From Nodularia spumigena CCY9414 (GTDB lineage: Bacteria > Cyanobacteriota > Cyanobacteriia > Cyanobacteriales > Nostocaceae): a stretch of 53,784 nucleotides of DNA. The first letter of the stretch is position 1, and every line of letters begins with the position of its first letter. Positions 9,515 to 53,784 of the stretch are shown here, piece by piece. The notes under the pieces are model-generated. The model was not told where the DNA came from. It ran no database searches and saw only the letters and a list, made by a program, of their open reading frames with translations. The DNA lies in the NCBI RefSeq assembly GCF_000340565.2, contig NZ_CP007203.1, forward strand, positions 2,097,561-2,151,344, in the 5' to 3' direction. The position numbers were made by a program, and so were the translations under genes.

Positions 9515-9552
9515 TGTCGGATGTTGCCGCTTTTACACGTTCTGTATCAATT

Positions 9553-12332: not shown

Positions 12333-12754
12333 GCCAAATTTCTGAAGAAGTCCGGGCGCGAATACGGACACAGGCCAACAATCAATGCGGTTACTGCCGT
12401 AGTCTTCAAAAGTATGTTTTAGGAATCCTGGAAATCGAACACATTATTCCCAAAGCAGCAGGTGGTACTGATGATGAGGAAAATCTGTGGCTTGCCTGTA
12501 GGTTATGCAATTGTTACAAAGGCATCCAAACCCATGCGAAAGATCCAGTGACAAACCGTAAAGTTAAACTCTTCAACCCTCGTCAACAAAAATGGTCACG
12601 TCATCTAACCTGGACAAACGATGGCACTCAAATTGCAGGTCTAACCGCCTGTGGTCGTGCAACTGTCTTAGCTTTACAACTGAATAACCCCTATGCTGTC
12701 ACTGTCAGGCAAGCTTGGGTTTCTGCTGGTTGGCATCCACCAACTGAAAAGTGA
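12329..12754 (+). CDS. HNH endonuclease-domain protein
   Basis: A 141-residue protein from a GTG start that overlaps the upstream stop codon (GTGA). The HNH core covers about residues 18-65: CGYC, LEIEHIIPKAAGGTDDEENL with the catalytic His, then ACRLCNCYKG. The C-terminal half (VKLFNPRQQKWSRHLTW ... GRATVLALQLN) is typical of a cyanobacterial group of free-standing HNH proteins. The two Cys pairs should bind zinc and the beta-beta-alpha fold should cut DNA. It is not fused to an intein or intron ORF, and no modification gene lies nearby. The substrate is unknown. Confidence 0.9.
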   Translation: MSQISEEVRARIRTQANNQCGYCRSLQKYVLGILEIEHIIPKAAGGTDDEENLWLACRLCNCYKGIQTHAKDPVTNRKVKLFNPRQQKWSRHLTWTNDGTQIAGLTACGRATVLALQLNNPYAVTVRQAWVSAGWHPPTEK

Positions 12755-12822
12755 GCAAAATCACTACAATCCTACTCAACTTATTTGTTAAAATTTGACT
12801 AGGCTTCTCCTCACATACCCAG

Positions 12823-14046
12823 ATGACTTTTAACTCTCTGATTCCCGATACAGCGCTTTCAGTAGCCGGATTAACCGACTATATCCGCTTGCTATTAGAA
12901 CAAGATAATCAATTACGCCAAGTTTGGGTAATTGGGGAAGTTTCCAGTGCTAACAACCATCGCAGGGGCTTATTTTTTACCCTACAAGACCCCGAGGCGA
13001 CAGCCGGAATTAAGTGTGTGGTTTGGAAAAGCCAAATCCCTAAACTGGCTCAAATGCCAATTGCAGGTGAGCAGTTAATTATTTTGGGTAGTATCAGAGT
13101 TTACCCGCAACGGGGAGAGTATCAATTATCGGTTTGGCAAGCTATACCTGCGGGTGCTGGTTTACAGGCGCTAGGCTATCAACAATTAAAAAACCGATTG
13201 CTGGCTGAGGGTTTATTTGATACAGAACGCAAACGCCCTCTACCTCTGCACCCTCAAACTATTGCTGTGGTAACATCACCCACGGCGGCGGCTTGGGGCG
13301 ATATTCAAAAAACTCTCAAGCAACGATATCCAGGTTTACAGGTGTTATTTTCTCCCGCTACTGTGCAGGGTGAGCAAGCACCTGATTCTATAGTTAAGGC
13401 GATTAATCGCGTCAATCGTGATGGTCGCGCCCAGGTGCTGATTTTATCACGGGGTGGTGGTGCGGTTGAGGAATTGGCTTGCTTTAATGATGAACGGGTG
13501 GTGAGGGCTGTTGCTACTTGTTCTATCCCGGTAATTACTGGTATTGGTCATCAACGGGATGAGTCTTTGGTAGATTTAGTTGCTGATGCCTGTGTACATA
13601 CACCGACGGCGGCGGCGGAAACTGTTGTCCCATCTCTTGCAGATTTGTATTTTCAGCATCGCCAAAGGATAGTTGCGCTACGTGAGGCGGTAGGGGAATT
13701 TACGGTAAATTCTGAGAATAAGTTGCAAGGTTTACGCGATCGCTTGCGGCGTTTAGGATTAGATAAACAGGTGCAGCAGGAGTTACAGCAGCTAAATTGG
13801 AAAAGGCAACAATTGATACAGGTGACTTTGGGGCGATCGCACCAAGCCCAGCAGCGTTTAGAATTATTACGGGAAAAGTTGGCTAGTCTTGACCCCAAAG
13901 CGGTGTTACAGCGTGGTTATGCTGTGGTGAGGCGGGAAAATGGGGAAATAGCTCGTTCTGCTTCTGAGTTAACTGTGGGGGAGGATTTATTGATTCAGTT
14001 GGGGCTGGGGGAGGTTAAAGTGAAGGTGATGGAACTGAAGGATTAA
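12823..14046 (+). CDS. xseA: Exodeoxyribonuclease VII large subunit
   Basis: Catalytic subunit of the single-strand-specific exonuclease that trims DNA in both directions. It has 407 residues. The N-terminal OB-fold (about 10-105) has VWVIGEVSSANNHRRGLFFTLQD. The catalytic domain shows VVTSPTAAAWGDI, LSRGGGAVEEL and ITGIGHQRDESLVDLVAD. A coiled helical C-terminus follows (about 285-360), ending in LDPKAVLQRGYAVV. It is somewhat shorter than the E. coli protein, mainly in the helical stalk. xseB follows after 35 bp on the same strand, so the two form an operon. Confidence 0.97.
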   Translation: MTFNSLIPDTALSVAGLTDYIRLLLEQDNQLRQVWVIGEVSSANNHRRGLFFTLQDPEATAGIKCVVWKSQIPKLAQMPIAGEQLIILGSIRVYPQRGEYQLSVWQAIPAGAGLQALGYQQLKNRLLAEGLFDTERKRPLPLHPQTIAVVTSPTAAAWGDIQKTLKQRYPGLQVLFSPATVQGEQAPDSIVKAINRVNRDGRAQVLILSRGGGAVEELACFNDERVVRAVATCSIPVITGIGHQRDESLVDLVADACVHTPTAAAETVVPSLADLYFQHRQRIVALREAVGEFTVNSENKLQGLRDRLRRLGLDKQVQQELQQLNWKRQQLIQVTLGRSHQAQQRLELLREKLASLDPKAVLQRGYAVVRRENGEIARSASELTVGEDLLIQLGLGEVKVKVMELKD

Positions 14047-27687: not shown

Positions 27688-28712
27688 TGCAAATCATTAA
27701 CCGAAGCCAAAAGGGCTAATCCTGATCTAAAATCAGTACAATCTCAGGTATTGCAACAAACGTTAAAACGAGTTGAAAACGCATTCACAAGTATGTGGGA
27801 ACAAAATCATGGATTTCCTAGATTTAAAAAATCTGGAAAGATGCGTAGTTTTGTCTTCTGGCAAATGAAGGGGGATAAATTAAGTGGTGGGAGAATTAAC
27901 CTACCTGTGATTGGTTGGGTTAAATTCCGACAATCCCGTTCAATCCCAGATGGGGGAGGGATGAAACAAGCACGTGTAGTCAAGCGTGTTTCTGGATGGT
28001 ACGTAATGTTAACTATCCAGTGGGATATTAGTCTACCCCAACCCATGCCACACGGGGAAGCAGTAGGAATAGATGTTGGATTAACAAATTTTATTGCAAC
28101 TTCTAATGGTCTTTTAGTCAAGCGTCCGAGGTTTTTTGTAGATGCCGTTCGCGAAGCGTGTCCCCTTGGGACTTACGCAAGCTGAAATTGCTGCAACAGC
28201 GTGTTTCCAAAAAACGATTAGGCTCGAACAATTGGAAAAAAGCACAAAAGAAAGTGGCTTCATTGCATGAGTACGTTGCTAATTGTCGTAAAGACTGGCA
28301 CAGAAAACTGTCTCACCAAATTTGTGACAGCGCCGGGATGGTGTTTGTTGAGGATTTAAATTTAGTTGGTTTGTCCCGTGGAATGCTGGGTAAGCATTGC
28401 TTGGATGCTGGATTCGGAAAATTCTTTAATATCCTCGAACAAACTTGTTTTAAACGTGATGTCTATTTTCAAAAAGTAGATGCACGGAAAACAAGCCAAA
28501 TCTGTCCCCACTGCGGAGTTGAGACAGGAAAGAAAGAACTTTCTCAACGTATTCATGTTTGCTCAAATTGCGGCTATACAACTGATAGAGATGTTGCAGC
28601 TGCTCAAGTAGTCGCAATTCGCGGACTTGCAGCCGTAGGGCATACGGTCAAGATGCTTGCTGAGGGTAAATTCATTGGAATCCCTGTGAAGCAAGAATCC
28701 TCGTACCTTTAG
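27688..28712 (+). pseudogene. tnpB: TnpB (IS200/IS605-family RNA-guided nuclease), 5'-truncated and frameshifted
   Basis: Two frames make one protein. The first (to 28185) starts inside the family at CKSLTEAKRANPDLKSV; the N-terminal part is missing. It has RuvC-I GIDVGLTNFIAT. The second (from about 28177 to 28712) has the helix RKLKLLQQRV, VFVEDLNLVGL (RuvC-II Glu), the zinc ribbon CPHC..CSNCG and DRDVAAAQ (RuvC-III Asp). The frames change at 28140-28178, where a palindromic segment (TTCGCGAA, then GTCCC-CTT-GGGAC) interrupts VDA-RKLKLL. Catalytic residues survive but no intact protein can be made. The 3' end and right-end hairpin are intact. Confidence 0.88.
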
Positions 28713-32987: not shown

Positions 32988-33086
32988 ATGCCCAAACCCT
33001 ACAGTTACGACCTCCGTCAAAAGGTCATCCAAGCTATCGAACTCGATAATTTGAAGAAAACCGACGCGAGTCAATTTATCCTATAA
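32988..33086 (+). pseudogene. IS630-family transposase, N-terminal scrap
   Basis: MPKPYSYDLRQKVIQAIELD and the following LKKTDASQFI are the start of an IS630-type helix-turn-helix N-terminus. The frame ends after 32 residues, where the 3' end of the convergent DUF1822 gene begins (six-base overlap). The DDE core is absent. It marks the left border of the accessory island. Confidence 0.8.
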
Positions 33087-34127
33087 TTCAAAATCTTCTT
33101 TAATTGTGATATTGTCTAAGCTGACCTCAATACTAAACTGTTTACCTTTTTCTCCTTGAAAAGGATTAATTTGAATGTAACTATCTTGACTTCTAGATAT
33201 AACTTCACACAGTGATTTTCCCGCTTTTGATAGTAAAGTTAGCTTGAGATTAGGCTGTAAAAATTTTGTTTCTCCCCTTGGATGCAACTGGATTAATACA
33301 CGCAATTTTTCTTCAGCCTCTTCTTTAATATTTACCAACATGACAACAGGATAGTTACCAAGTTGCATTCCTAAGTTAATAATTTTACCTCGTTTGATAC
33401 TATCAGCATTATTTCTGGTATTCAAAGCTAAATTAGTATCAAGATTAATCAGTGCAGCAATTGACTGCCATTCATCGAGGAAAATCCCCCGCAACCATTG
33501 GCTCAATTTAGTTTTAGTTTGAGGCAAAGATTGCATTGAATTATCTTCGTTGTTGACAGTCGTTAACACAGGTAAGGGAATCGCATTAGCATCTAAAAAA
33601 CGGCAGTAAAATAAAATATGATTTGGCTCTGGATCAAATTCTGCTAGTGGTAGTTGATAACAACTATTCCTTGGTTTTAAATTCATCTTATCTCGATAAC
33701 CAACGAGTTGGTCGTAACGTAAAATACCTCGAATAATCAGTTCTGCTTGCTCTTCTAATATTTCAATGACGACATATAAATGAGCGCACGCTTCCGGCTT
33801 AATAATATTATCTTCAGGTATGTTTATTAATTCATCTAGTAGATTTTCAGTAACGATTAAACAAAATTTAAATTCACCTACTTGGATATGAGTAAAAGTA
33901 TCAATAATCTGATTGCTCCGATTGATGGGTTGCTCAGGTAGGTGTTCTTTGAGCCATTTAGCAAATCCTAGTGATGCTAGTGCATTTAAATATGTTTCCC
34001 ACTGTTTTAATTCACCAACTACCTGCTGACTGACGTTTCTTGCTGAATAAAAATGTTCTGGTTCTAACCAAATTAATTCTGGTAATAATAATCTCAAATT
34101 ATTGGTATTCTCATGATTATTAATCAT
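33081..34127 (-). CDS. DUF1822 family protein
   Basis: 348 residues, soluble, with the DUF1822-type start (RLLLPELIWLEPEHFYSARN), a middle block (GYRDKMNLKPRNSCYQLPLAEFD) and the C-terminal IQLHPRGETKFLQPNLKL. The family is essentially cyanobacterial, has no known function, and in my recollection is often found near CHAT-domain or sigma-like genes. It is the second gene of a minus-strand pair with the 481-residue protein (109 bp gap). Its last codons overlap the IS630 scrap; homologue length is needed to tell whether the C-terminus is native. Confidence 0.8.
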   Translation of the reverse strand: MINNHENTNNLRLLLPELIWLEPEHFYSARNVSQQVVGELKQWETYLNALASLGFAKWLKEHLPEQPINRSNQIIDTFTHIQVGEFKFCLIVTENLLDELINIPEDNIIKPEACAHLYVVIEILEEQAELIIRGILRYDQLVGYRDKMNLKPRNSCYQLPLAEFDPEPNHILFYCRFLDANAIPLPVLTTVNNEDNSMQSLPQTKTKLSQWLRGIFLDEWQSIAALINLDTNLALNTRNNADSIKRGKIINLGMQLGNYPVVMLVNIKEEAEEKLRVLIQLHPRGETKFLQPNLKLTLLSKAGKSLCEVISRSQDSYIQINPFQGEKGKQFSIEVSLDNITIKEDFEL

Positions 34128-34236: not shown

Positions 34237-35682
34237 TTAATTTTGCCTAGATTGGGTTTGCAAGTAATTCCGAAGTTTTTGAGCATATAAACTATCAAGG
34301 GAACGGTTTTTGCTGGCTCTAATTTCTTCTCCTGCTTCTATAAATACTTCTACATCGACAAAATTTTCTATTTGTTCAGCCAAGGTTTTCAGGTATTCGG
34401 GTTCGGGAGGAATTGAGGTTAAACCTTTAGTATGAGCTTTTTCTAAAACAGTATCGAGAAGTTTCTGTACCGTTAATGTACGTACCTTACTCAACAGTTC
34501 ACCAGGATTTAATATTCGTCGTGTTTGATCCCAACTTGTCATGGACAAAAGCTCTACAATGTCCTTCAAAGTCCTACACTCACAGTAATATAGTTGTAAA
34601 CCAGGAAGATACTTGTGAGCTAGCGGAGCATAACTTCTACTGGTTTTTAACTTGGCAATTGTCTTACTAATTTCTTGTGCGATCGCATCAGACAAAATTA
34701 ATTTAAATTGTTGATGTAGAAATTCTATTATTTCCTGTTCTTCTAAATGCGATTCATCGTAAGAAACTGTGGGTAAATCTTTTCTGGGTTTATGTATCCC
34801 AGTATCCTGATCTGGAATTTCGAGAGGTTCTCTGTAACTCCAAACGTCATATTGTCGCAGTTGGTTTCCTACTTGTTTGAGTTCTTGCTTCAACTCATCT
34901 GTAGTCTTGATTATGATGTCATGTTCTTGCAAGCGCGTCAGCATTTCCTGCAACTGGGAAATAGTCGGGTCTGGACATTTTCCCACTTCTATCTGTCTTC
35001 TTTCACGTCTATCTCTTCGATAGACAGCATGAAATACCGTTATTAGTTGGCGCGATCGCTGAGTTAAAATTTGTAGTTGCTTGGATCTAACTCGGTTTAA
35101 TAATGACCAATCACTATGATACTGAAAACCAAATTCTGATAAAAACTTTCTCAGTTCTGGATTTTGTTTAGTTTGCAAATACGTCCAATTATCTAGACTC
35201 ATACTTGATTGAGAGTCATGCTTAAATTTGCGTAAGACTTCCACTGTAAACAATTTATAAGTTTTTGTCTGAGGAACACCATGCTCATCTATGACTAATT
35301 GAGTTTTGCGATCGCTATCCAAAATAACTAATTTGTTGCCATCATCATCTAGTACACAGCTTAATAAATCTTGATAGCTGAAAGATTTTTCACCACTGAA
35401 GAGACTATCAATTTTTTGACAGGCTTTCAGAATCGGGTAGGAAACATAGCACCGCAGACACAAACCAGCTAGTCCACGATTGATCAAATCCTTCTCCCCC
35501 AGATGATTGGTATAAAAATTCCCTAGCAGGATAGATTGGATGTCATCATTTTGGCAATGATCAACTTGTTGCTGGAAAAAATCCCGTGCTTGAGACAGGT
35601 CACACTGTTTGTATCCTACTTGTTGATTAGTGAGATTAATTCGCCAAATCGTCCAGTACCTTGATCTTGATGCAGCATTCAT
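34237..35682 (-). CDS. Uncharacterised 481-residue protein upstream of DUF1822
   Basis: No domain that I can name. It starts MNAASRSRYWTIWRINLTNQ. It is soluble, charged and mostly helical. A central strongly basic stretch (LITVFHAVYRRDRRERRQIE, about 215-235) could bind nucleic acid, and a helical C-terminus ends SLDSLYAQKLRNYLQTQSR. The tract INRGLAGLCLRCYVSYPILK with a Cys-x-Arg-Cys is notable. It is co-directional with DUF1822 and presumably co-transcribed. It could be a regulator of the neighbouring island; that is a guess from position. Confidence 0.75.
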   Translation of the reverse strand: MNAASRSRYWTIWRINLTNQQVGYKQCDLSQARDFFQQQVDHCQNDDIQSILLGNFYTNHLGEKDLINRGLAGLCLRCYVSYPILKACQKIDSLFSGEKSFSYQDLLSCVLDDDGNKLVILDSDRKTQLVIDEHGVPQTKTYKLFTVEVLRKFKHDSQSSMSLDNWTYLQTKQNPELRKFLSEFGFQYHSDWSLLNRVRSKQLQILTQRSRQLITVFHAVYRRDRRERRQIEVGKCPDPTISQLQEMLTRLQEHDIIIKTTDELKQELKQVGNQLRQYDVWSYREPLEIPDQDTGIHKPRKDLPTVSYDESHLEEQEIIEFLHQQFKLILSDAIAQEISKTIAKLKTSRSYAPLAHKYLPGLQLYYCECRTLKDIVELLSMTSWDQTRRILNPGELLSKVRTLTVQKLLDTVLEKAHTKGLTSIPPEPEYLKTLAEQIENFVDVEVFIEAGEEIRASKNRSLDSLYAQKLRNYLQTQSRQN

Positions 35683-35891: not shown

Positions 35892-36128
35892 TCAATATTG
35901 GCGATTATTCTCCATTTTCGTCGCTTCTTCTACGGTTTCAGGGTATTTATTGTTGCTGGGTTGAGCTAGACCTGCGGCGGCTGCTATGGCTGTTCCGGCT
36001 AATCCCATTCCCGCCGACCATTTCACGGAGTCAGCATTTTGAGGTAAAAAGAGAACCGCGACCCCAATCGCTCCACCAATAGTGGCTAAAAGTAGAGGGG
36101 TAAAAGCTCGGATCAAATTAGCTTGCAT
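35892..36128 (-). CDS. Small two-helix membrane protein, paralogue of the 36390 ORF
   Basis: 78 residues with two hydrophobic segments (LLLATIGGAIGVAVLFL, about 12-28, and GMGLAGTAIAAAAGLA, about 39-55) and a charged tail (ETVEEATKMENN). It aligns with the protein encoded at 36390-36632: TP-x-LLA-x-(I/V)G near the start, (S/T)A-x-GLAGTAI-x-x-AAGL in the second helix. It is transcribed divergently from its paralogue across a 261-bp gap. The size and helix number are holin-like; there is no direct evidence of pore activity. Confidence 0.7.
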   Translation of the reverse strand: MQANLIRAFTPLLLATIGGAIGVAVLFLPQNADSVKWSAGMGLAGTAIAAAAGLAQPSNNKYPETVEEATKMENNRQY

Positions 36129-36389
36129 AGTTTTTCACAATATGAATTTTTGGCTCAGTCATAAATACAAACAAGATGTTTCAACTTATGCAGTGTCATA
36201 TAGCATTTCTCATTTTAGTCAGGTACATCCTCTGAGAATCGCTATAAAACAACCTCTTACAAAAATACTGCATAAGCTGATTTTGATAACACCTATAAAT
36301 CAGTGAACAGTTATCAGAATTGTTATCTGGTGTTTTGCATCTGTAAGCAGACTGATAAATGTGAGATACATATTTACAGTGCATAAATC

Positions 36390-36632
36390 ATGCAAAATAA
36401 ATTCATAAAAAGCATTAATTTCCCAGCACGAAATGCCGAAATCCTCAAGTCAATAACCCCTATGTTTTTAGCGATTGTCGGTGCTGTAATCGCCATCGCA
36501 GCACTAGGATCACCAAAAATTTCTAATGAGAAATTAACATCTGCAATTGGCTTGGCAGGAACAGCCATATCTGGGGCTGCTGGGTTGTCTCGATCAAGTT
36601 CGACAGAATCTAATTCAGATCCAGAAAAATAG
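36390..36632 (+). CDS. Small two-helix membrane protein, first gene of the lysozyme cluster
   Basis: 80 residues. A basic N-terminus (MQNKFIKSINFPARN) leads to two hydrophobic helices (TPMFLAIVGAVIAIAAL, about 23-39; AIGLAGTAISGAAGL, about 52-66) and a polar Ser-rich tail. It resembles the divergent protein at 35892-36128 and is followed 79 bp later by a lysozyme-family gene. A tiny two-helix membrane protein before a muralytic enzyme is the arrangement of holin-endolysin cassettes, which is the basis for suggesting a holin-like role. Confidence 0.7.
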   Translation: MQNKFIKSINFPARNAEILKSITPMFLAIVGAVIAIAALGSPKISNEKLTSAIGLAGTAISGAAGLSRSSSTESNSDPEK

Positions 36633-36711
36633 AGTTTTGCCACAAGAAACACATTTTTATATTGGGACACACTTCTGCTCAATATCTTTATCTTATTCAT
36701 CAATTAATACC

Positions 36712-37308
36712 ATGCAATCTATTAACACTACGAAACTTTTTGTCCTCAAACCAGAGTATGAAAAGCTCTGGAATAGCTGTCAGATTAGACCTGAGTGGCT
36801 AGAGCGTACTAAAAAAGTCGTCATCAACATTCAAGCGAAACGCGATCGCTATGAAAGCGTAGCCTCAGAAACTAAAGTTCCCTGGTATTTTATTGGGTGT
36901 ATCCATAACATGGAGGCATCTTTAAACTTCAACAGTCACCTCCATAATGGTGATTCCCTTAAAGCTCGAACTCATCGGGTTCCGAAAGCTCGCCCAATAA
37001 ATACCCCTAAAAATGGTTGGGATGTTGGCTATTCTTGGGAAGAAAGTGCAGCAGATGCACTAATTATGAAAAACTTTCATAAAGCTCAAGATTGGACTAT
37101 TCCGGCTCAGTTATGGCGGCTCGAACTTTACAATGGTTTTGGTTATAGACTTCATCATCCAGATGTGCTGACACCTTATCTCTGGAGTGGTACTCATAAC
37201 TATAACAAAGGTAAATATGTTGCAGATAATAAGTGGAGTCCTGATGCTATTTCTGAGCAAGTGGGAGCAGCAGCCATCTTAAAACTGTTGTTACCTGAAA
37301 TCAAATAA
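36712..37308 (+). CDS. Lysozyme-family peptidoglycan hydrolase
   Basis: 198 residues from the ATG at 36712; the open frame extends to 36547 but that part overlaps the preceding gene and is unlike the family. Conserved features: WYFIGCIHNMEASLNF with the presumed catalytic Glu68, HLHNGDSLKARTHRVPKARP, SWEESAADALIM, LYNGFGYR and YLWSGTHNYNKGKYVAD. This is the phage-like lysozyme group (COG3926 type). No signal peptide is seen, so release would need a holin-like partner such as the gene just upstream. The next gene also targets peptidoglycan. Confidence 0.87.
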   Translation: MQSINTTKLFVLKPEYEKLWNSCQIRPEWLERTKKVVINIQAKRDRYESVASETKVPWYFIGCIHNMEASLNFNSHLHNGDSLKARTHRVPKARPINTPKNGWDVGYSWEESAADALIMKNFHKAQDWTIPAQLWRLELYNGFGYRLHHPDVLTPYLWSGTHNYNKGKYVADNKWSPDAISEQVGAAAILKLLLPEIK

Positions 37309-37485
37309 ACCTTCCATAGCTTTAGTTTAAATCCTGACAGATACCAGTACAAAAAGTGCTGGTATTTTTTTGTGAAGTAGTTACAAGTGCATAAGTTCCT
37401 GAGCAATACAACTATTACAAAATAACAGCCAATTCAAAAATATTGTTTGGCTAAATCAATTAAATTAAACTAGAGGATCACATCT

Positions 37486-38379
37486 ATGCAACTAGCGGAA
37501 AGAATAGGTACACAAGAAACTATTAGTTTAGAAAAATTACAAAATGACTCTAAACTAGCAAGAGAATTACAACAAAAATTAATTGACTTGGGTTTACTAG
37601 ATCCACTTGCTGATGGAAAATTTGGACGTTTTTCTACTCAGGCACTGAAAGATTTCCAATTACTCATGAAAATAGAAGAGGAGGGTCTAGGTAAAGCAAC
37701 TATCCAAGCTTTAATTGAAGTTAAAGAAGTTATCCCTTTGCAGTTGAGTGATAATTTGGCTAGCCGAATCATTAAGTATATGCAAAGTAAAAATAAAAAT
37801 TACTTTGTTGCCAGAGGAAAACAGAGATACAACATCATTTATATTGAAGGAGCTAATGCTGATGGTGTACCAAATGCTGATAAATTAAATGAATGGAACG
37901 ATCGCCGGATTGTGATTGAAATCGCGATGGGAACTCCGCAAATTGTGGGTAACTGGCTAGCTACCACAGAACCTGGACATTATTACACAGTCAATCCCAT
38001 GAATCCGAAAGGTGCAGCGAGAATTGCATTTGGGCAGTATCCAGCTTGGCAAGTAGGGACACATGGCAACTCTGAGCCTCATGAAGCACTGGTTCAAACT
38101 GGTGTAGTTAAACTACATCGCGATCGCAATAAAGATGGATTTCGGACTGGCGATCCTGAAGATATTGGTTCTCATTTCGGAATTAATCAACATTGGGGTT
38201 ATGACAATAAATTGGTTGATAAAGCCAGTGCTGGTTGTTTGGTAGGACAAACTCGTCAGGGACATAGAGAATTTATGCAGATCATTAAACAAGACCGTCG
38301 CTACCAGTTGAATAATAAATATACTTTCATGTCAACCATTATTGCTGGTGATGATTTAGCCAAAACTGTCCCCGCTTGA
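37486..38379 (+). CDS. Peptidoglycan-binding protein with an SAGC (YkuD/L,D-transpeptidase-like) C-terminal domain
   Basis: 297 residues. A PG_binding_1 three-helix module (about 23-80: ELQQKLIDLGLLDPLADGKF ... STQALKDFQ) precedes a beta-rich domain. That domain has HRDRNKDGFRTGD, HFGINQHWGYD and ASAGCLVG with Cys251, then GHREFMQIIK. The SxGC motif and upstream His recall L,D-transpeptidases; catalytic function is not proven. There is no signal peptide. It follows the lysozyme gene by 177 bp and precedes the CHAT-WD40 gene by 178 bp, all on the same strand. Confidence 0.8.
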   Translation: MQLAERIGTQETISLEKLQNDSKLARELQQKLIDLGLLDPLADGKFGRFSTQALKDFQLLMKIEEEGLGKATIQALIEVKEVIPLQLSDNLASRIIKYMQSKNKNYFVARGKQRYNIIYIEGANADGVPNADKLNEWNDRRIVIEIAMGTPQIVGNWLATTEPGHYYTVNPMNPKGAARIAFGQYPAWQVGTHGNSEPHEALVQTGVVKLHRDRNKDGFRTGDPEDIGSHFGINQHWGYDNKLVDKASAGCLVGQTRQGHREFMQIIKQDRRYQLNNKYTFMSTIIAGDDLAKTVPA

Positions 38380-38394
38380 AATTAACTAATGACC

Positions 38395-38422
38395 AATGAC
38401 CAATGACGCGTCATTGGTCATT
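38395..38422. repeat. Perfect 28-base palindrome made of AATGACC heptamers
   Basis: AATGACCAATGACG followed by its exact reverse complement, 15 bp after the SAGC gene's stop codon. It combines the common heptamer repeat with a fold-back and could act as a transcript-end hairpin, though no T-run follows. Confidence 0.75.
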
Positions 38423-38557
38423 TCACCCCATCTAATCAAGTTCAACTAAGAAAAAAATATTATTTTTCTACAAAATATCGTAAAAATGCGCTATAAACTG
38501 TTAATTTAGCTTATATATGATAGTATACTTACAAAATAAACTTTATACTTATAAATA

Positions 38558-41500
38558 ATGAGCAAAACAGTTGTCATCAATCTGGGAAATGGCGACTTGC
38601 ACAATGGATTTCCCAGCGTTACCGCGCAAATTCGCTCAGATGAGCATCTGCCCCCAGAGCAATTTATTGGTAGCTTGCCCGCAGATCCAAACTTGGTAGA
38701 ACTATATAGAAACTGGCGATCAATTTATCAGGCTCTGTGTAGTCGTCAATCACTGCGTTCTCAAGGCTGGGAGGAAGATGACAAACTGGAAATAGAAGCA
38801 GGAGCTATCACTAACGTTTCTCTGCTCGATTTTGATGAATTATGCCAAAATTTAGAAGATAACATTAATACTTGGCTGAAATCTACGGAGTTTCTGACAA
38901 TTGAGCGAAAATTGCGATCGCAACTAAACCCAGCAGAAGAAATTCGAGTAATTATAGAAACCAACGATGACAATCTGCGACGCTTACCCTTGCATAGTTG
39001 GGATTTTTTGAAGGATTATCCCAAAGCAGAACTAGCTCTCTCCAGGCCAGAGTATCAACGGCGAGAATCTTTACAGCCAACATTCACAAGAATTCAAGTC
39101 AGAATCTTAGCGATTTTGGGGAATAGCCAAGGCATCGATTTGCAGACAGAAACAACTTTTCTCAAAAGCTTAGACAATATTGCAGAAGTTGTTTCTCTCA
39201 ACAATCCCTCGCGTCAAGAATTCAACAGGCAGCTTTGGGACTCTAGAGGCTGGGATATTCTGTTTTTTGCAGGTCATAGTCAAACCGAAGGTGACACAGG
39301 CAGAATTTACATCAATGAAAATCAGATAAATAACAGTCTGACAATAGAACAGTTAGAAGAAGCTTTGATTGCAGCCATTGAAAAAGGTTTAAAGCTAGCA
39401 ATTTTCAACTCCTGTGATGGACTGGGATTGGCCAATGCTTTGGGGAGATTACATATTCCCCAGGTGATTGTGATGCGGGAGCCAGTGCCAAATTATGTAG
39501 CACAGGTATTTTTTCAAAATTTTCTCCAGGCTTTTGCCATTGAACACAAGCCTTTATATCTAGCCATTCAGCACGCACGCAGGCAGTTACAAGGTTTAGA
39601 GGATAATTTTCCTGGTGCTTCTTGGTTACCCGTAATTTGTCAAAACCCATCTGTACAACCACCAACTTGGTTACAGTTGGGCGGGATTTCCCCTTGTCCC
39701 TATCGCGGTTTATTTGCCTTTCGAGAGGAGGATGCACACTTATTTTTTGGCAGAGAAAAATTCACGGCTAATTTAGTCAAAGCGGTGAAAAAAAAGCGGT
39801 TTGTGGCTGTAGTGGGAGCTAGTGGCAGTGGTAAGTCTAGTTTAGTATTTGCTGGGTTGACTCCCCAGTTGCGACAAGACCCAAATGTGCAATGGCAAAT
39901 CTTTGATTTTCGTCCAGGGAAAAATCCCTTTGAAGCTTTGGCGACTGCATTAGTGAGTTTACGGCAGTGTTGTCCCTCTGTTTCCCTAGAAAATATACTA
40001 GAGTTGCCAAAAGATCATACCACTACTCGCTTACTAGAATTAGATTTAGCGATCGCCTTAGAGCAAAACCACCAATTACTACACACCATCCTAGAAAAGT
40101 TTGTCCAGCATGAATTTGGCACTCGTTTACTACTCATAGCAGATCAGTTTGAGGAACTTTACACCCTTTGTCCAGAACCACAACGTCAGCCTTTTTTAGA
40201 TTTATTACTCAATGCTTATAGTTTCACTCCCGCCTTCACCATCGTTTTAACCCTGCGGGCTGACTTTTACAGCTATGCCCTTTCTTACCGCCGCTTTAGT
40301 GATGCCTTGCAAGGAGCAGTGCAGAACCTTGGCCCCATGAATAGAAAGGAATTGCGTCGGGTGATAGAAGAACCTGCCAAAAAAATGCACCTAGGACTAG
40401 AAGCAGGATTAACCAATCAATTAATCGACGAGATAGACCAACAGCCAGGACATTTGCCGTTACTTGAGTTTGCCCTTACCCAGTTATGGTCAAAACAGCA
40501 AAATAGGCTCTTAACTCATCAGGCTTATCAAGAAATTGGTGGTGTAGAAGAAGCCTTGGCTAACCATGCTGAGGCTGTCTATGCCCAGCTAAACGAAGCA
40601 GACAGGCAAAGGGCGCAACAAATATTTATCCAATTGGTACGTTTAGGAGATGAGACAGAAGCTACCCGACGGTTGACAACTCGTGAGGAAGTCAGGCTAG
40701 AAAACTGGGATTTAGTCACACAACTTGCTTCTTCACGTCTAGTAGTGACCAACCGTAATGAGTCCACGGCAGAAGAAACAGTAGAAATTGTCCATGAAGC
40801 GTTAATTAGAAGCTGGGGACGACTGGAAGAGTGGCTACTTGAGGATGGTGACTTTCTGCGCTGGCGAGAACAATTGCGTTTAGCAATTCGCCAATGGGAA
40901 AATAATGGACATGATCAAGATGCGCTATTACGAGGTAAGGCCTTGACAGATGCCCAAGAATGGCAATTGCAACGCTCACAAGAACTCAATACAAATGAAA
41001 TCAGGTTCATTAAGCAGAGTTTGGAACTGAGAGAACTTGAGGTTAAACAGCAGCAGCGCATACGTAAACTAGCAATTTCATCCCTAGTTGCTGGTTTAGT
41101 CTTCAGCCTCGGTCTCGCTGGGTTTGCTTGGTTGCAAAGACAAAAGGCACAGATTAGCGAAACTAAAGCAATCAGCTCATCAGCCGAAAGCTTGCTTAAT
41201 GCAAATCTAGAGTTCGATGGATTAATTGCCAGTATTAGAGCAGGTAGGCGCATCAAAGGCACTGAGGGAATTGATGCCAACACTCGCACTCAAGTTACCG
41301 AAACTCTACAACAGTCCATCAACTTCGTCAGAGAGAAAAATCGTTTAGCAGAGCATGATGGAATCCTAGAGAGTGTCAGTTTTAGCCCTGATGGTCAATT
41401 CATTGCCACCGCCAGCAGAGATAAAACCGTCAAAATTTGGAGTCTCGACGGCAAAAAACAGCCAGTCATGCTGCGAGAAAAGACAGGAGAGGGATTTAAT

Positions 41501-43192
41501 AGCGTTGCCTTCAGCCCGGACAGTACACTCATAGCTACCGGCAGTTGGGATAAAACAGCAAAAATATGGAGTCGAGACGGTAAACTCCTCCACACTCTTG
41601 ACAAACATAAAGAAGCAGTTTTGGAAGTCGCCTTTAGTCCTAATAGTCAGCTACTTGCTACTGCTAGTTGGGACAACACAGTTAAACTCTGGAGTCGGGA
41701 CGGTAAACTCCTGCACACTCTTGACAAACATAAAGATAAGGTCAACAGCGTCACCTTTAGCCCAGACGGTAAGCTAATTGCTACTGTCGGTTGGGACAAC
41801 ACCATGAAACTCTGGAATCTTGATGGTAAGGAATTGCGAACCTTTACCGGACATAAAGATATGATTTGGAGTGTCAGCTTTAGCCCAGATGGTAAACAAA
41901 TTGCTACCGCCGGTGGTGACAGAACTGTCAAAATTTGGAATTTGGAAGGAAAAGAACTGCGAACCCTCATAGGTCATCAAAATGGGGTGAACAGTGTGAT
42001 ATTCAGTCCCGACGGTAAACTGATTGCTACAGCTAGTGGTGACAAAACTGTCAAACTTTGGAACAGCAAAGGAAAAGAACTAGAAACCCTCTACGGACAC
42101 ACTGATGCAGTTAATAGCGTCGCCTTTAGTCCTGATGGCACATCCATCGCTACAGCTGGTAGTGACAGAACGGCTAAAATTTGGAGATTCAACAGTCCTA
42201 ACAGCATTATTGTCCGGGGTCATGAAGATGAGGTTTTTGACCTAGTGTTTAGCCCAAATGGTAAGTACATTGCTACAGCTAGTTGGGATAAAACCGCCAA
42301 ACTCTGGAGTATTGTAGGGGATAAACTTCAAGAACTGCGAACCTTCAAGGGACATAAAGGCAGGGTAAATAAGCTGAGTTTCAGCCCAGATGGTCAGTTA
42401 ATTGCGACGACGAGTTGGGATAAAACCGCCAAACTCTGGAATCTAGACGGTACATTACATAAAACTCTTATAGGACACAAAGATACAGTCTGGAGTATAA
42501 ATTTCAGTCCAGATGGTCAATTAATTGCTACGGCTAGTGAGGATAAAACTGTCAAACTCTGGAATCGAGACGGTGAATTGCTTAAAACTCTCCCACGTCA
42601 GAGTAGTGTAGTTAATAGCGCAGTGTTCAGCCCTGACGGTAAGCGAATTGCTACGGCTGGTTGGGACAAAACAGTGAAAATTTGGAGTATTGACGGCAAA
42701 GAACTAAAAATCTTAGATGGACATACAAGTGGTATTAACAACCTCACCTTCAGCCGGGATGGTAAGCTGATTGCTAGTGCCAGTTGGGATAATACTGTCA
42801 AAATTTGGCATCTTGACGGTCAAAAAACGCAAACTTTGGAAGGACATAAAAATGTTGTTCACAATGTTGCCTTCAGCCCAGATGGTAAATTTATTGCTAC
42901 GGCCAGTGGTGATAATACTGTAAAAATCTGGAATCTTGATGGCAAAAAAGAATTGCGTACCCTGCGAGGCTATAAAGATGCAGTTTGGAGTGTGCGCTTT
43001 AGTCCTGATGGTAAGACTCTAGCCACAGGTAGCAGACATGATATCGTGGTTTGGCATTTATATTTAGATGATTTAGATCAATTACTAGTGCGTGGTTGTG
43101 ATTGGGCGCGAGATTATTTGCAGAATAATCCTGATGTGAAACCTGATGAAAAAAGTTTATGCGACGGGATACGCTCCATTCCTCAACAATGA
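38558..43192 (+). CDS. CHAT protease-like / STAND-type NTPase / WD40 membrane protein
   Basis: 1544 residues. The N-terminal CHAT (caspase-like) domain (about 130-365) has His240 in LFFAGHSQ and Cys286 in FNSCDG, the expected dyad. It is followed by PCPYRGLFAFREEDAHLFFG and an nSTAND-type NTPase with Walker A GASGSGKSS (420-428) and a Walker B region LLLIADQFEEL. A transmembrane helix (about 840-862) precedes 14 WD40 repeats (about 930-1500), enough for two seven-bladed propellers. By family logic the propellers sense a ligand, the NTPase switches, and the CHAT domain cleaves a target. The target is unknown; the neighbouring lysozyme, SAGC and mini membrane proteins are candidates. The WD40 region creates many antisense shadow ORFs. 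Confidence 0.95.
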   Translation: MSKTVVINLGNGDLHNGFPSVTAQIRSDEHLPPEQFIGSLPADPNLVELYRNWRSIYQALCSRQSLRSQGWEEDDKLEIEAGAITNVSLLDFDELCQNLEDNINTWLKSTEFLTIERKLRSQLNPAEEIRVIIETNDDNLRRLPLHSWDFLKDYPKAELALSRPEYQRRESLQPTFTRIQVRILAILGNSQGIDLQTETTFLKSLDNIAEVVSLNNPSRQEFNRQLWDSRGWDILFFAGHSQTEGDTGRIYINENQINNSLTIEQLEEALIAAIEKGLKLAIFNSCDGLGLANALGRLHIPQVIVMREPVPNYVAQVFFQNFLQAFAIEHKPLYLAIQHARRQLQGLEDNFPGASWLPVICQNPSVQPPTWLQLGGISPCPYRGLFAFREEDAHLFFGREKFTANLVKAVKKKRFVAVVGASGSGKSSLVFAGLTPQLRQDPNVQWQIFDFRPGKNPFEALATALVSLRQCCPSVSLENILELPKDHTTTRLLELDLAIALEQNHQLLHTILEKFVQHEFGTRLLLIADQFEELYTLCPEPQRQPFLDLLLNAYSFTPAFTIVLTLRADFYSYALSYRRFSDALQGAVQNLGPMNRKELRRVIEEPAKKMHLGLEAGLTNQLIDEIDQQPGHLPLLEFALTQLWSKQQNRLLTHQAYQEIGGVEEALANHAEAVYAQLNEADRQRAQQIFIQLVRLGDETEATRRLTTREEVRLENWDLVTQLASSRLVVTNRNESTAEETVEIVHEALIRSWGRLEEWLLEDGDFLRWREQLRLAIRQWENNGHDQDALLRGKALTDAQEWQLQRSQELNTNEIRFIKQSLELRELEVKQQQRIRKLAISSLVAGLVFSLGLAGFAWLQRQKAQISETKAISSSAESLLNANLEFDGLIASIRAGRRIKGTEGIDANTRTQVTETLQQSINFVREKNRLAEHDGILESVSFSPDGQFIATASRDKTVKIWSLDGKKQPVMLREKTGEGFNSVAFSPDSTLIATGSWDKTAKIWSRDGKLLHTLDKHKEAVLEVAFSPNSQLLATASWDNTVKLWSRDGKLLHTLDKHKDKVNSVTFSPDGKLIATVGWDNTMKLWNLDGKELRTFTGHKDMIWSVSFSPDGKQIATAGGDRTVKIWNLEGKELRTLIGHQNGVNSVIFSPDGKLIATASGDKTVKLWNSKGKELETLYGHTDAVNSVAFSPDGTSIATAGSDRTAKIWRFNSPNSIIVRGHEDEVFDLVFSPNGKYIATASWDKTAKLWSIVGDKLQELRTFKGHKGRVNKLSFSPDGQLIATTSWDKTAKLWNLDGTLHKTLIGHKDTVWSINFSPDGQLIATASEDKTVKLWNRDGELLKTLPRQSSVVNSAVFSPDGKRIATAGWDKTVKIWSIDGKELKILDGHTSGINNLTFSRDGKLIASASWDNTVKIWHLDGQKTQTLEGHKNVVHNVAFSPDGKFIATASGDNTVKIWNLDGKKELRTLRGYKDAVWSVRFSPDGKTLATGSRHDIVVWHLYLDDLDQLLVRGCDWARDYLQNNPDVKPDEKSLCDGIRSIPQQ

Positions 43193-45378: not shown

Positions 45379-45873
45379 ACTGGACTTTAGACTAAAAAAT
45401 GCGATCGTTAGCTCATGGGAGTGAAAAAAAATCAAGGGATGCCTGTAAGAACAGACACCCCCGTAGTGGAAGATGAAAGAAGCACAACCAACGTTCATCA
45501 ACCGCTATGGATGTTTTTACACAACTAAAGGAATTCCGTCAAGCAGCATACCAATGTTTATGTCGGGCAAAGGACGCAACATTTGAAATGACGGATGCAA
45601 TATTGCTGACACGAAATGCCTACAGTCTGGCAGACTTATCAATGTGTCCAGTATTCCGTCAAACCACCAAAACCACGAGGTAAATCTCCCGGCTGGAAAC
45701 CAGGACAGAAGAGACGACGTAGAATTCGCTATCCTATCGTCAAAAAGCGCACTTCTCCTTTACGTAAAGCCCAGCCTAAATCCGCTTGATTTCTAACTTT
45801 TATCATTTTTTACTTTGCTTTTTTTCAACTCAGCTTCCCTGAGTCACTTTGTGCTTTTAGTCTAAAGTCCAGT
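45379..45873 (+). mobile_element. Internally deleted insertion sequence with intact terminal inverted repeats
   Basis: Nineteen-base inverted repeats ACTGGACTTTAGACTAAAA at 45379-45397 and, inverted, 45855-45873 bound a 495-bp element. The candidate target duplication is TATT on both sides. Inside are only the two ends of a transposase gene. An active relative could mobilise it, which is how MITEs start. Confidence 0.85.
45507..45789 (+). pseudogene. Transposase with the middle deleted (N-terminus joined to C-terminus)
   Basis: ATG at 45507 opens MDVFTQLKEFRQAAYQC, then AILLTRNAYSLADLSMCPVFR, the start of a cyanobacterial transposase. After the junction near 45662 the original C-terminus appears in another frame (PPKPRGKSPGWKPGQKRRRR to KAQPKSA, stop at 45789). 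The catalytic core is missing, so no active enzyme can be made. The family assignment is from recall. Confidence 0.85.
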
Positions 45874-49725: not shown

Positions 49726-50688
49726 TTAATTTCTCGCAAATAAGCGATCCAAGAAATCAACCTTTACTGCTAAATTGGTAATTCCCCGATTTGTGCCTAA
49801 CTCTTTAATTTCCGCATTATTCAACGCCACAATATGAGGTTCACCACCAATCCAACCGATGATGGGACCACCGGAAGAACCCCCAGTAGTGTCACAATCA
49901 TGCAATAATATGTCCTGTTCCTCGTTAAAAATACTGCATCCAGCTTGATAAGAAGCAGTCCAACCCTGACCAGCACTAAGGAACTCATAGCCTTTTCTCT
50001 TGGGGTTAGGGAAGTCACCAGAATAGCCTACAAAGAAGAGCTTTTTCTGGTTTTTTAAGAAACTTGCAGTTGGTAGAGATTTCCATCCTAAATAACCATA
50101 CTTGCGACCAAGGGGCTTATCAATTACCATCACAGCCCAATCATTGATTTGATTACTTATTTCATCACCTGTAAAGTCTGTACCATAGACTACGCGATTT
50201 ACTACAGCGATATCTCTTTGATTGGGAACCACTCCATTAATTACATTGGGTAAAAACCGGATTTCTTGACTTAATTTATTGGTTGTAGGATCAATCACGC
50301 AGTGAGCATTTGTTAACACCAGATTTTCACTGATTAAAGTACCCGTGCAGTGATAATTTTGAAAATCAGTAGTTGTTCCCTGCACTCGCCCAATTGTTGA
50401 CCAAGGATATTCTCTACTAATCATCGGGATACGGTCATCCCAATCAATAATCGCTCTGTCTGAGTCATAGGGTTTTTCAGATTTCTTTATCTCAGCAGGT
50501 TTGAAAGGTTTGCCATTTCCTGATAATTGCAATTGACTTGCATCTTTGAATTTAGTAAATTCTGGTGCTTTGGTTGGTTGTGCTTGTACTGATACCCAAC
50601 CGCCCCAAGTTGTAAAAGTCAAAATTCCCGCGATAAAGCAAGCAAAAAACAATGTCAAAGGTTGGTTGTAGAAATGCTTTTTCGTCAT
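49726..50688 (-). CDS. Secreted trypsin-like/V8-like serine protease
   Basis: 320 residues. A signal peptide (hydrophobic LTLFFACFIAGILTF, probable cleavage after VQAQ near residue 37) directs export. The chymotrypsin-fold triad is visible: His129 in LTNAHC, Asp183 in INDWAVMVID and Ser272 in TTGGSSGGP. Cys114/Cys130 and Cys251/Cys265 could form disulfides. It is closest to V8-like glutamyl endopeptidases. It lies downstream of the TPR-CHAT gene on the same strand, but an inverted-repeat element separates them. Confidence 0.92.
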   Translation of the reverse strand: MTKKHFYNQPLTLFFACFIAGILTFTTWGGWVSVQAQPTKAPEFTKFKDASQLQLSGNGKPFKPAEIKKSEKPYDSDRAIIDWDDRIPMISREYPWSTIGRVQGTTTDFQNYHCTGTLISENLVLTNAHCVIDPTTNKLSQEIRFLPNVINGVVPNQRDIAVVNRVVYGTDFTGDEISNQINDWAVMVIDKPLGRKYGYLGWKSLPTASFLKNQKKLFFVGYSGDFPNPKRKGYEFLSAGQGWTASYQAGCSIFNEEQDILLHDCDTTGGSSGGPIIGWIGGEPHIVALNNAEIKELGTNRGITNLAVKVDFLDRLFARN

Positions 50689-51101: not shown

Positions 51102-53784
51102 TTAATTCCATTCTCCTTGGATGGTAAAAGCTGACCAATAACGGGGGTTTTGCCAATCTTTCTGTTGCCATAGTTTCAATTGCGCTTCCCTCAGAGCGAC
51201 AACAGGGGTTTTACCTTGTTGCAAAATTTGTGTGTATAATTGCTGCATTAATTCTGATGTGGCTTGGTCATCAACTTTCCACAAGGAAACAACTACACGG
51301 GCTGCACCTGCATACATTAATCCTCTTGTCAATCCTATTAAGCCTTCTCCTTTGACTTCTTTACCTAGTCCGCTTTCGCAGGCACTCAAAACGATTAACT
51401 CGGCGGGGAGGTCGAGGTTAAATATATCGTTGAGGCGTAAGAAACCTTTTTGTGGTTTACCATCTTTATCTATTAGGGATGTGACTATACCTGATAGTTC
51501 TGGGTTGGTGTCATCGAAAATGCCGTGGGTGGCGAATAGCACGAGGCGATATTGACTCAGTTGTTTGCTAGTGACAAATTTGTAGTTAGCATCAAAGTCA
51601 AAGGCTTGCAGACTTTCTTGAGGTGATACCATTTTTAGCACTGCGTCAGCCTCTTGGCGCGTACCTGGGAGTCTATCTAAGCCAGTACGATTAATATTGT
51701 TTAAAGAGCGTTTCAGGGCAGAACGTTCTAGTTCTAAGTCGAGGGATGAGGAGGCTGGCGGTGTTTTCCCTGTGACGCGTGTATCATCAGCACTGAATAC
51801 GGGATCTGCGAGAACCGCGAAAGTTTTGGCTGCGGGTTTACGTCCTTTGAGTTGCTGTCTGTGGGTAGCAAGACTGGTGACTGAGGGAAGAGTAATGATT
51901 TCATGATTGACTAGCATGGGTTGGTACTTCTGCTCCTGCTTTCCTTGCAGGGAAGGGCGTTGGGGGGTTAGGTCAGATAACACCGCAAAAGGAATCTTAT
52001 GTAAAATCCCATCAGCGACCACTACTAAGCGTTTTTTCCCCAACTTCTCAGCCACGGGTGCAAGGATAATTTGACTCAGTTCCTGAGCGGCTTTGGTTGT
52101 ATCGGCTAAATATTGGGCTTTTTCTGCCTCTGTTGCTCCTTGGATGTGTTCTTTTGTCAACTCTTTGTATAAATTACTCGCGGCTGTTTCTATCTTTTCG
52201 CTTCCTGGTAGTTCGTAGGTATCGACGGAGTTAGGGGTAACTAGCCACAGATAGCTGCGGTCTTTATCCAAGGAATATTGCAACAACACGGTGTCTTTAT
52301 CCAATTGTTGTTGAATTTGGCGCAAGCTGAGGGGTTCAGGATACTTTAGTCCAGCATACTGAGGGTTGGTGTTACGGAATTTTGTTTTTAATTCTTGGTG
52401 TTGCTTGAGTAAGTCTTGGATTTGTTGTTTGGTAGTTGCTATTAGTTGGGTTGATGGCTCTTTTTGACTGAATAGTTGTGACAACAGTTTTTCTTGGGCA
52501 TCAATTCGCCATTGCAATTGGCGTTCTTCTGTTAAGAGTTTTGGCTCAACACCTTTACGGATATCTACGTTAGCTTCGGTTAACAGTTCTACCAATCCTC
52601 TGGTACGGGAACGTTCGCTAACTTCCAATGCCTTAGCATCATATCTTTTTGATGGGTCTTTTTTGTGCAGTTCCATCAGCAGGTCGGTGTAGAACTTGTA
52701 GTATTTCTGCACGGAAGCAAAATAAGAAGCGCGTAGTTCTTGGCTAGCTATTTTGGTGCGTAAATCTTCAACGATTTCAATAGCTGCTTGAATATGTGTT
52801 TGGGCTTGTTGTAAATTACCTTGACTGCGTTCTAGGTTAGCTATGTTAAAGAGGGTGGTGGCTTCCCCTCCCTTGTCACCCACTGCACGGTATATGGGTA
52901 AGGCTTGGTTGTAGAATTTGAGCGCTTCTTGCTTTTCTCCTAATGAGTCGTAGACAGCGCCAATATTATTGAGGGTGGTGGCTTCCCCTCCCTTGTCTTC
53001 CACTGCACGGTATATGGGTAAGGCTTGGTTGTAGTATTTGAGCGCTTCTTGCTTTTCTCCTAATGAGTCGTAGACCAAGCCAATATTATTGAGGGTGGTG
53101 GCTTCCCCTCCCTTGTCACCCACTGCACGGCGTATGGGTAAGGCTTGGTTGTAGAATTTGAGCGCTTCTTGCTTTTCTCCTAATGAGTCGTAGACAAAGC
53201 CAATATTATTGAGGGTGGTGGCTTCCCCTCCCTTGTCTTCCACTGCACGGCGTATGGGTAAAGCTTGGTTGTAGTATTTGAGCGCTTCTTGCTTTTCTCC
53301 TAATGAAGAGTAGACCAAGCCAATATTATTGAGGGTGGTGGCTTCCCCTCCCTTGTCACCCACTGCACGGTATATGGGTAAAGCTTGGTTGTAGAATTTG
53401 AGCGCTTCTTGCTTTTCTCCTAATGAGTCGTAGACACTGCCAATATTATTGAGGGTGATGGCTTCCCCTCCCTTGTCACCCACTGCACGGCGTATGGGTA
53501 AAGCTTGGTTGTAGTATTTGAGCGCTTCTTGCTTTTCTCCTAATGAGTCGTAGACACTGCCAATATTATTGAGGGTGGTGGCTTCCCCTCCCTTGTCTTC
53601 CACTGCACGGTATATGGGTAAAGCTTGGTTGTAGAATTTGAGCGCTTCTTGCTTTTCTCCTAATGAGTCGTAGACACTGCCAATATTATTGAGGGTGGTG
53701 GCTTCCCCTCCCTTGTCTTCCACTGCACGGTATATGGGTAAAGCTTGGTTGTAGAATTTGAGCGCTTCTTGCTTTTCTCCTAAT
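51102..53784 (-). CDS. TPR-CHAT protein, 5' part outside the window
   Basis: The frame is open to the right edge, so the start is not visible; at least 893 residues. About eight near-identical 40-residue tetratricopeptide units ([20 protein letters not shown] type) form the visible N-terminal part. A linker of coiled helices follows, then a C-terminal CHAT domain with His in [10 protein letters not shown] and Cys in [16 protein letters not shown], ending [22 protein letters not shown] is caspase-like and TPR units bind partners. It is a different architecture from the CHAT-NTPase-WD40 protein at 38.6 kb. The substrate is unknown. Confidence 0.94.
52858..53784 (-). repeat. 120-bp tandem repeats encoding near-identical TPR units
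   Basis: About 7.7 copies of a 120-bp unit differ at only a few codons: VEDK/VGDK, KFYN/KYYN, PIYR/PIRR, and the residue after NIG. The DNA itself is conserved, silent sites included, which points to recent expansion or conversion. It continues past the window edge. Confidence 0.95.

Follow-up and report, generated by a model that had tools for sequence, protein, structure and literature searches.

What are genes of the kind that phages use to burst their hosts doing beside an immune-type switch on a cyanobacterial chromosome? The question is raised by a locus of Nodularia spumigena CCY9414 (contig NZ_CP007203.1), located in a stretch of 53,784 nucleotides that is called the window below. The source genome is a single contig of 5.46 Mb, and its relatives and plasmid matches are cyanobacterial. 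A sequence-only reading had described a triggered-lysis cassette here: four plus-strand genes, for a mini membrane protein, a phage-type lysozyme, a peptidoglycan-binding SAGC protein and a CHAT-STAND-WD40 protein, with a second mini gene diverging upstream. The open reading frames (ORFs) were found where they had been placed, with gaps of 79, 177 and 178 bp, and a sequence comparison confirmed that the two mini proteins, A and B, are paralogues. The conserved block extends further to the left than had been noted, up to a DUF1822 gene at 33081. Our survey supports the view that phage-type lysis genes and immune-type switches are paired recurrently and non-randomly, with swappable parts. To the further proposal, that STAND, TIR and CHAT conflict systems have taken over a pore-plus-endolysin module of phage origin to do their killing, by triggered lysis, we give slightly less than an even chance.

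The switch protein has the layout that had been read from it. Pfam gave an nSTAND1 domain (6e-124), 14 WD40 stretches and a CHAT domain (1.3e-11, query residues 1-375), and a hydropathy scan revealed a single hydrophobic segment at residues 835-853. The catalytic pair of CHAT consists of His240 in the motif FAGHSQ and of Cys286, as claimed, in the motif NSCDG, which starts at residue 284; a Walker A motif starts at residue 420. The His and Cys motifs were both retained in all eight proteins compared. According to PADLOC, the protein matched a HEAT-ARM candidate model via its WD40 part, and mad3/mad8 weakly. The CHAT-nSTAND1 part was matched in 30 of 30 genomes of the family. In three other loci (L065, L066 and L067; loci are numbered with L and genomes with G), a CHAT gene lies near sigma-like and DUF1822 genes without lysis genes, and the relative in L065 has CHASE2 as its C-terminal part. 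A second CHAT gene of the window, encoding a TPR-CHAT protein, was found at 51102-53723 on the minus strand (Pfam CHAT, 1.4e-65), about 8 kb past the first one.

Neither of the two wall enzymes has a hydrophobic segment according to a simple hydropathy scan, which is not a signal-peptide predictor. The lysozyme gave no match in Pfam, PHROG or NCBIfam. A Foldseek search of the PDB with its AlphaFold2 model (predicted local distance difference test [pLDDT], 95.6) returned weak matches, none below E 0.8, mostly goose lysozymes and lytic transglycosylases; one phage peptidoglycan-binding protein was matched at 2e-11. Residue 68 is the predicted Glu, which was invariant in 46 aligned lysozymes (that of the window and 45 of 69 viral relatives) and missing from 2 of 16 chromosomal relatives, both of them divergent (L105 and L126). 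The SAGC protein contains PG_binding_1 (Pfam, 4e-7) and matched PHROG 3000, a family of unknown function (2.5e-36), and the endolysin family PHROG 33083 (2e-14). Its model (pLDDT, 92.8) matched a fused amidase/peptidoglycan-binding protein (2e-5) and showed a weak likeness to several L,D-transpeptidases and carboxypeptidases (best E for an L,D-transpeptidase, 2e-3); no YkuD match was found in Pfam, so that the profile does not place it among the L,D-transpeptidases. Cys251 and His236 did not vary in either of two alignments, of 19 and of 13 sequences. Because of these invariant residues and model matches, the first enzyme is most likely a lysozyme-superfamily endolysin, and the second is most likely a Cys-dependent wall peptidase, as predicted from sequence and model. 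Both families are shared with phages: the SAGC family was found at 41 loci and the lysozyme family at 69 loci of IMG/VR contigs, and 24 deposited phage records matched SAGC and 1 matched the lysozyme.

Each of the two mini proteins has one strong and one weak hydrophobic stretch. Two other types of small membrane partner were recognized in related loci: a second family, F10, with the motif KTFW, and a DUF4231/SLATT domain with two predicted transmembrane segments (2-TM), present in L091 and, by similarity only, in L093. At L105 (2200-3633, minus strand), a DUF4231 domain of the SLATT 2-TM type is fused to a phage lysozyme in a protein of 477 amino acids (aa); its gene adjoins one for a TIR-WD40 protein, and a fused lysozyme-SAGC protein is encoded nearby. 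In a prophage of G213 (L245, 9002-13383, minus strand), overlapping SAGC and mini genes adjoin a gene for a central tail fibre J protein, and such a prophage is a possible phage source of the SAGC/mini pair; the viral locus L138 has identical gene starts, is apparently the same prophage and was counted once. Profile searches found the mini and F10 families in at least 5 of 386 genomes each, numbers that are lower bounds because 13 to 14 candidates were scored per genome. An F10 gene near a CHAT-STAND-WD40 gene in G212 (L133 and L252) has no wall enzyme adjoining and was not counted as a pairing.

The neighborhood of these genes was then surveyed across the order, in 195 genomes. Of these, 15 had lysozyme matches, 8 had mini matches and 74 matched the SAGC query, many of the last via the peptidoglycan-binding part only. 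SAGC matches confined to about residues 1-120 (about 60 rows) were excluded, and 64 loci, 1.06 Mb in total, were fetched around all the remaining SAGC-domain, lysozyme and mini matches. With the window excluded, 63 of the 64 had an anchor ORF; L069 was dropped, its mini ORF having been lost in the ORF filter. A WD40 gene, counted as such with 7 or more repeats, was found in 10 of the 63 anchored loci, within 1 kb of the anchor in 8, within 2 kb in 9 and at 3.3 kb in one. The number expected within 1 kb was at most 0.71 of 63 (P 6e-7), given the 492 WD40 pieces that 12 genomes (86.8 Mb) contain, which is an upper bound for genes. The counts were the same with stricter anchors. Peptidoglycan-binding cross-matches had given some loose SAGC or lysozyme labels, and a recount on the two catalytic domains alone left the locus counts unchanged. 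When the loci were collapsed by hand to four lineages, P was 1e-3 for an assumed 40 lineages and 4e-4 to 6e-3 for 30 to 63. Any switch gene was present in 16 of 64 loci, compared with 2 of 40 controls (P 0.007). The controls were loci of 19 kb from ten genomes holding such lysis loci, several of their contigs having been named by WD40 or AAA_35 searches, a choice that should raise, not lower, the control rate. No WD40, nSTAND or CHAT gene was found in 110 viral loci, one of which (L137) had a TIR gene. The presence of a switch also went with that of a membrane partner: of 14 loci with a partner within 1.5 kb of the SAGC or lysozyme gene, 9 had a switch within 2 kb, compared with 3 of 46 loci without a partner (P 2e-5). 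Five of the nine are F10-NB-ARC loci of one family; L059 and L062, which both hold a switch, failed the 2-kb rule as coded and were entered as having a partner without a switch.

Exchange was observed on both sides of the pairing. The switch is of the CHAT-nSTAND1-WD40 type in the window, L059 and L062, NB-ARC-WD40 in L063, L064, L073, L078 and L080, NB-ARC without WD40 in L074 and L079, TIR-WD40 in L091, L093 and L105, and AAA_35 in L061. The enzymes beside SAGC or lysozyme genes include phage lysozyme GH24, GH108, GH46, N-acetylmuramidase and Amidase_2. At L062 of G120 (632-12955, minus strand), genes for a GH24 lysozyme, a mini protein, LysM, CAP and agglutinin-like lectin proteins, SAGC and a second mini protein form a one-strand run adjoining a CHAT-nSTAND1-WD40 gene. 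At L061, a gene for a patatin-like phospholipase (6371-7348, minus strand) adjoins GH108, SAGC and mini genes, and its product is a possible further membrane effector. Because the pairing recurs with exchange on both sides, a swappable effector module of pore plus endolysin, serving conflict-system switches of several kinds, would be its simplest account.

The most compact arrangement is that of the IMG/VR contig L137. There, TIR, SLATT and SAGC genes form a one-strand run (2547-4788, plus strand); the first two overlap and the third follows 78 bp on, near a contig end, so that host DNA is possible. Compared with L091, identity is 43% over 129 residues in the TIR part, which also matches solved TIR domains, and 51% over 158 residues in the SLATT part. 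By eye, the TIR protein ends in what may be an FHA domain. This run suggests a nucleotide-signal-gated pore that would serve as a holin. SAGC was matched in 15 plasmid records, of which 10 were opened, 7 of these being cyanobacterial, and a switch adjoins SAGC in three of the seven. On pLBX of Leptolyngbya boryana, a species that can be worked with in the laboratory, AAA_35-WD40 and helix-turn-helix-AAA_35 genes diverge from SAGC and a second peptidoglycan-binding enzyme; on a plasmid of Tolypothrix PCC 7910, CHAT-AAA_35 and AAA_35-GUN4 genes lie beside SAGC; and on a plasmid of Calothrix brevissima NIES-22, an NB-ARC-WD40 gene lies 146 bp from SAGC. No mini, F10 or SLATT gene was found in these three loci. 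A 112-aa protein encoded before SAGC in L. boryana was rejected as a membrane partner: in its annotated frame it has no Pfam match and no membrane-spanning helix by eye, and the locus is taken to be without a partner. The second enzyme there (L293, 7985-8881) was likewise rejected as a window-type lysozyme, only its peptidoglycan-binding part being matched; its second half, which gave no profile match, looks GH19-like by eye. No recognized switch was found on the other four cyanobacterial plasmids (Kovacikia and Calothrix PCC 7716 p2 by ORF scan, PCC 7716 p1 and NIES-4105 by annotation only), at the three rhizobial or methylobacterial places opened, or on a Nodularia plasmid, the one opened of 12 lysozyme records.

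The history of the block was examined by comparison with G111, from another genus of the same family, where six genes of the window block are kept. There, SAGC and the lysozyme lie on one strand, and mini, sigma-like, DUF1822 and CHAT-nSTAND1-WD40 genes lie on the other. Between the two genomes, the block of five genes differs in its orientation with respect to CHAT, by an inversion, and both have an amylase gene beyond CHAT. G111 has a single mini gene, no second one being found by sequence and profile searches. The seven genes compared have diverged to a similar degree: amino-acid identity was 84-90%, synonymous divergence (dS) was 0.16-0.31 and the ratio of nonsynonymous to synonymous divergence (dN/dS) was 0.18-0.47, the mini value resting on 64 codons; for the two enzymes dN/dS was 0.18 and 0.34. 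The simplest reading of these comparisons would be that the lysis genes have accompanied the CHAT system ever since the two genera diverged and have been under purifying selection; a joint transfer is a possible alternative history. A search with the amylase query for an empty site in six relatives found nothing.

Several results weigh against a lysis module under the control of the switch. No recognized switch was present in 48 of the 64 loci, and in G168 the lysozyme and SAGC genes are adjacent without one; the expectation of the sequence-only reading held insofar as the lysis genes stand recurrently and non-randomly beside switches, but in part they also occur independently of them, an outcome that it had named as speaking against it. 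Its dedicated link between CHAT and lysis was not borne out. The lysozyme, SAGC and mini genes were absent from the fetched stretch in all eight other CHAT-nSTAND1 loci (L065-L068 and L130-L133, two of them on short contig ends), and with matches to the CHAT-nSTAND1 part so abundant in the family, a dedicated pairing was rejected. Nor does the sequence fit the single operon that the word cassette implies. Between the lysozyme and SAGC genes, a hairpin of 12 pairs precedes a T run (z score, -4.3), and SAGC is followed by a stronger one that lacks a long T run (z score, -5.7). One operon is unlikely because these terminator-like hairpins divide the genes, and this reading was rejected; to judge from the sequence, there are probably three transcription units, one with mini B and the lysozyme, one with SAGC and one with CHAT. 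The hairpins weaken the cassette, not the island. In G111, moreover, the CHAT gene lies at the opposite end of the block. Among the block proteins, PADLOC matched the CHAT protein alone and no lysis gene. As to the pore, the best match of the mini proteins among PHROG holins had an E value of 0.066 only, which is not convincing, the mini relative of L061 had no match among 50,697 phage records, and a scan of viral contigs for close relatives of the L137 SLATT part found itself alone. The statistics are also less strong than they look: locus counts are inflated because the loci are related, WD40 genes taken alone gave 10 of 64 loci versus 1 of 40 controls (P 0.03 only), random placement of WD40 genes inside each locus, a weaker test, gave P 0.04 only, and the partner table gave P 0.015 to 0.04 once related loci had been merged by hand, with the rule unchanged and 20-30 partner-less lineages as a guess.

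Features of the conserved block, with positions in the window and the basis of each assignment
Feature	Position	Strand	Basis
DUF1822 protein	33081..34127	-	Pfam DUF1822 3e-79; orthologue 85% identical in G111 locus
Sigma-like gene, in the slot of the EACC2 sigma-factor partner	34237..35682	-	Homologue adjoins DUF1822 in L059, L065, L066, L067
Mini membrane protein A, holin-like candidate	35892..36128	-	Hydropathy; orthologue in G111
Mini membrane protein B, paralogue of A	36390..36632	+	Sequence comparison
Phage-type lysozyme/lytic-transglycosylase-like endolysin (predicted), no hydrophobic leader	36712..37308	+	Alignment, structure model
Terminator-like hairpin followed by T run, in lysozyme-SAGC gap	37339..37367	+	z -4.3
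PG_binding_1 + SAGC-domain endolysin (predicted; Cys251, His236), fold weakly L,D-transpeptidase-like	37486..38379	+	Pfam, PHROG, model
Strong hairpin 3' of SAGC gene, without long T run	38388..38422	not assigned	z -5.7
CHAT-nSTAND1-TM-14xWD40 switch protein	38558..43192	+	Pfam, hydropathy, motifs

The product of 34237..35682 had no domain above the cut-off in Pfam and no sigma match in Pfam or NCBIfam; we take it to be sigma-like from the literature, not from a domain match. Elsewhere in the window, a TnpB/OrfB-like transposon gene is found at 27751-28712 (plus strand) as two overlapping ORFs, the second of which matches OrfB_IS605 and a Cas12f1-like domain. Short ORFs at 45507-45796 (plus strand) are probably a transposase fragment, as their start matches an NF041680-type transposase of a Nodularia plasmid (L303, 8027-9337). 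A trypsin-like gene is located at 49726-50688, outside the block.

How does this gene set compare with systems already described? Phage holin-endolysin cassettes are a known kind, in which a small membrane protein is encoded next to leaderless wall enzymes. The present set shares enzyme families with phages and the lack of a hydrophobic export signal, but here the genes are found on chromosomes and plasmids beside immune-type switches, and the holin is putative. The CHAT gene, as far as sequence and the available text allow a comparison, matches the published EACC2/sigma/DUF1822 kind of conflict system (Kaur et al. 2021, PMC8195603): both have a caspase-type N-terminal module, a variable C terminus (STAND here, CHASE2 in L065) and a DUF1822 gene alongside, and a putative sigma-like gene stands here in the slot of the sigma factor. 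No EACC2-domain model came up for the window proteins in the libraries used, the likeness resting on these other features. Unlike our locus, the EACC2 systems are presented in the accessible text of PMC8195603 without the words lysozyme, peptidoglycan or holin. Effectors predicted to attack peptidoglycan are on record for NucA-trypsin systems, where lysozyme and papain-like domains are linked to EAD1 (Kaur et al. 2020, PMC7159879); there, however, the domains are recruited by EAD1, mostly in alphaproteobacteria, and the accessible text does not contain the word holin. NLR-like control of lysis in bacteria is likewise known from LypABC/CARD-NLR, where, in the available text, an NLR-like switch with peptidase domains is required for lysis and the lytic effector is unknown, whereas candidate lytic effectors stand beside the switch here (PMC13236601). 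Its authors, in the same text, found no canonical holin-endolysin genes and describe no WD40-CHAT protein beside endolysins. The block contains no counterpart of the trypsin-like peptidase partner of CARD-NLR (Pfam), and no gasdermin was found among the matches listed for block proteins (Pfam, PADLOC and NCBIfam). SLATT 2-TM effectors (Burroughs 2015, as cited in the part of PMC7159879 available) are similar in that a predicted 2-TM pore replaces the mini protein in TIR loci, and different in that here an endolysin is either part of the same protein or encoded in the same run of genes. In the literature covered, which lacks most subscription journals and preprints and whose listings are partly incomplete, no description of the lysis-gene/switch pairing was found.

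Other explanations of the pairing have to be considered. It is possible, though in our judgment unlikely, that the lysis genes are remnants of prophages or plasmids and came by chance to lie where conflict genes are abundant, without a functional tie to the switch, as cyanobacterial islands collect both. The frequency of both enzyme families in viral contigs, the overlapping SAGC and mini pair beside a tail-fiber gene in L245 and the majority of loci without a switch all fit such an origin, and two WD40 genes in one 16.5-kb stretch of the C. brevissima plasmid indicate a high local background. Against it speak the low dN/dS of the two enzymes between two genera and the association of switch adjacency with a membrane partner; WD40, nSTAND and CHAT genes are missing from the viral loci, no phage structural gene was recognized by Pfam among 19 window proteins scanned, and the genome gave no phage-sheath match.

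The last result also bears on the idea that the lysis genes release particles, toxins or DNA (a tailocin, a contractile injection system or a gene transfer agent) with the switch as the controller, as for LypABC in Caulobacter. That precedent, in which an NLR-like set is needed for lysis and particle release according to the accessible text of PMC13236601, is what speaks for it. Release of a contractile particle was rejected in the absence of a sheath match in the genome (capsid, portal and non-contractile tail genes elsewhere were not searched for), and no particle gene was found among the 19 window proteins by Pfam; we regard this explanation as very improbable. Hardly less improbable is wall remodelling in place of death, for growth, filament breakage or cell differentiation, with the CHAT system regulating it, perhaps via its sigma-like partner. 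The sigma-like and DUF1822 genes that flank the block are in keeping with it, as are the SAGC-like genes among ordinary chromosomal genes and, in the available text of PMC8195603, the proposal that EACC2 loci act partly on transcription. Yet enzymes without a hydrophobic leader would need a way out, and the TIR and SLATT domains of some loci speak for conflict systems.

Recruitment of a phage-derived lysis module by conflict systems, the reading to which we gave a nearly even chance, would work as follows. In the CHAT protein, the WD40 propellers together with the nSTAND1 NTPase would respond to a trigger, such as infection or damage, by switching on, with the signal passing from the switch to the lysis module under its control. 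The mini membrane proteins would next perforate the inner membrane; the wall would come within reach of the leaderless lysozyme and of the SAGC enzyme and be cut, and the cell would lyse before the invader spreads along the filament. A possible link between switch and pore is the cleavage of a membrane protein by CHAT; in TIR loci, a nucleotide signal may open the SLATT pore instead. The specific step in which CHAT cleaves the holin is far less probable than the reading as a whole; the TIR, NB-ARC and AAA_35 versions do without it. A broader form of the proposal, held more tentatively, is that of a general cyanobacterial class of systems that couple NLR-like, TIR or CHAT switches to domesticated lysis modules of phage origin, with a SLATT or two-helix protein acting as a signal-gated holin that frees a waiting cytoplasmic endolysin, and with free exchange of sensor, pore and enzyme.

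Cell-bursting genes beside immune-type sensors suggest a built-in self-destruct device. If this is true, hosts would have made immune effectors out of phage lysis machinery, and a SLATT pore gated by a TIR signal would amount to a messenger-operated holin. The debated programmed death of cyanobacteria would then have a concrete gene set, a version of which is found on pLBX of L. boryana.

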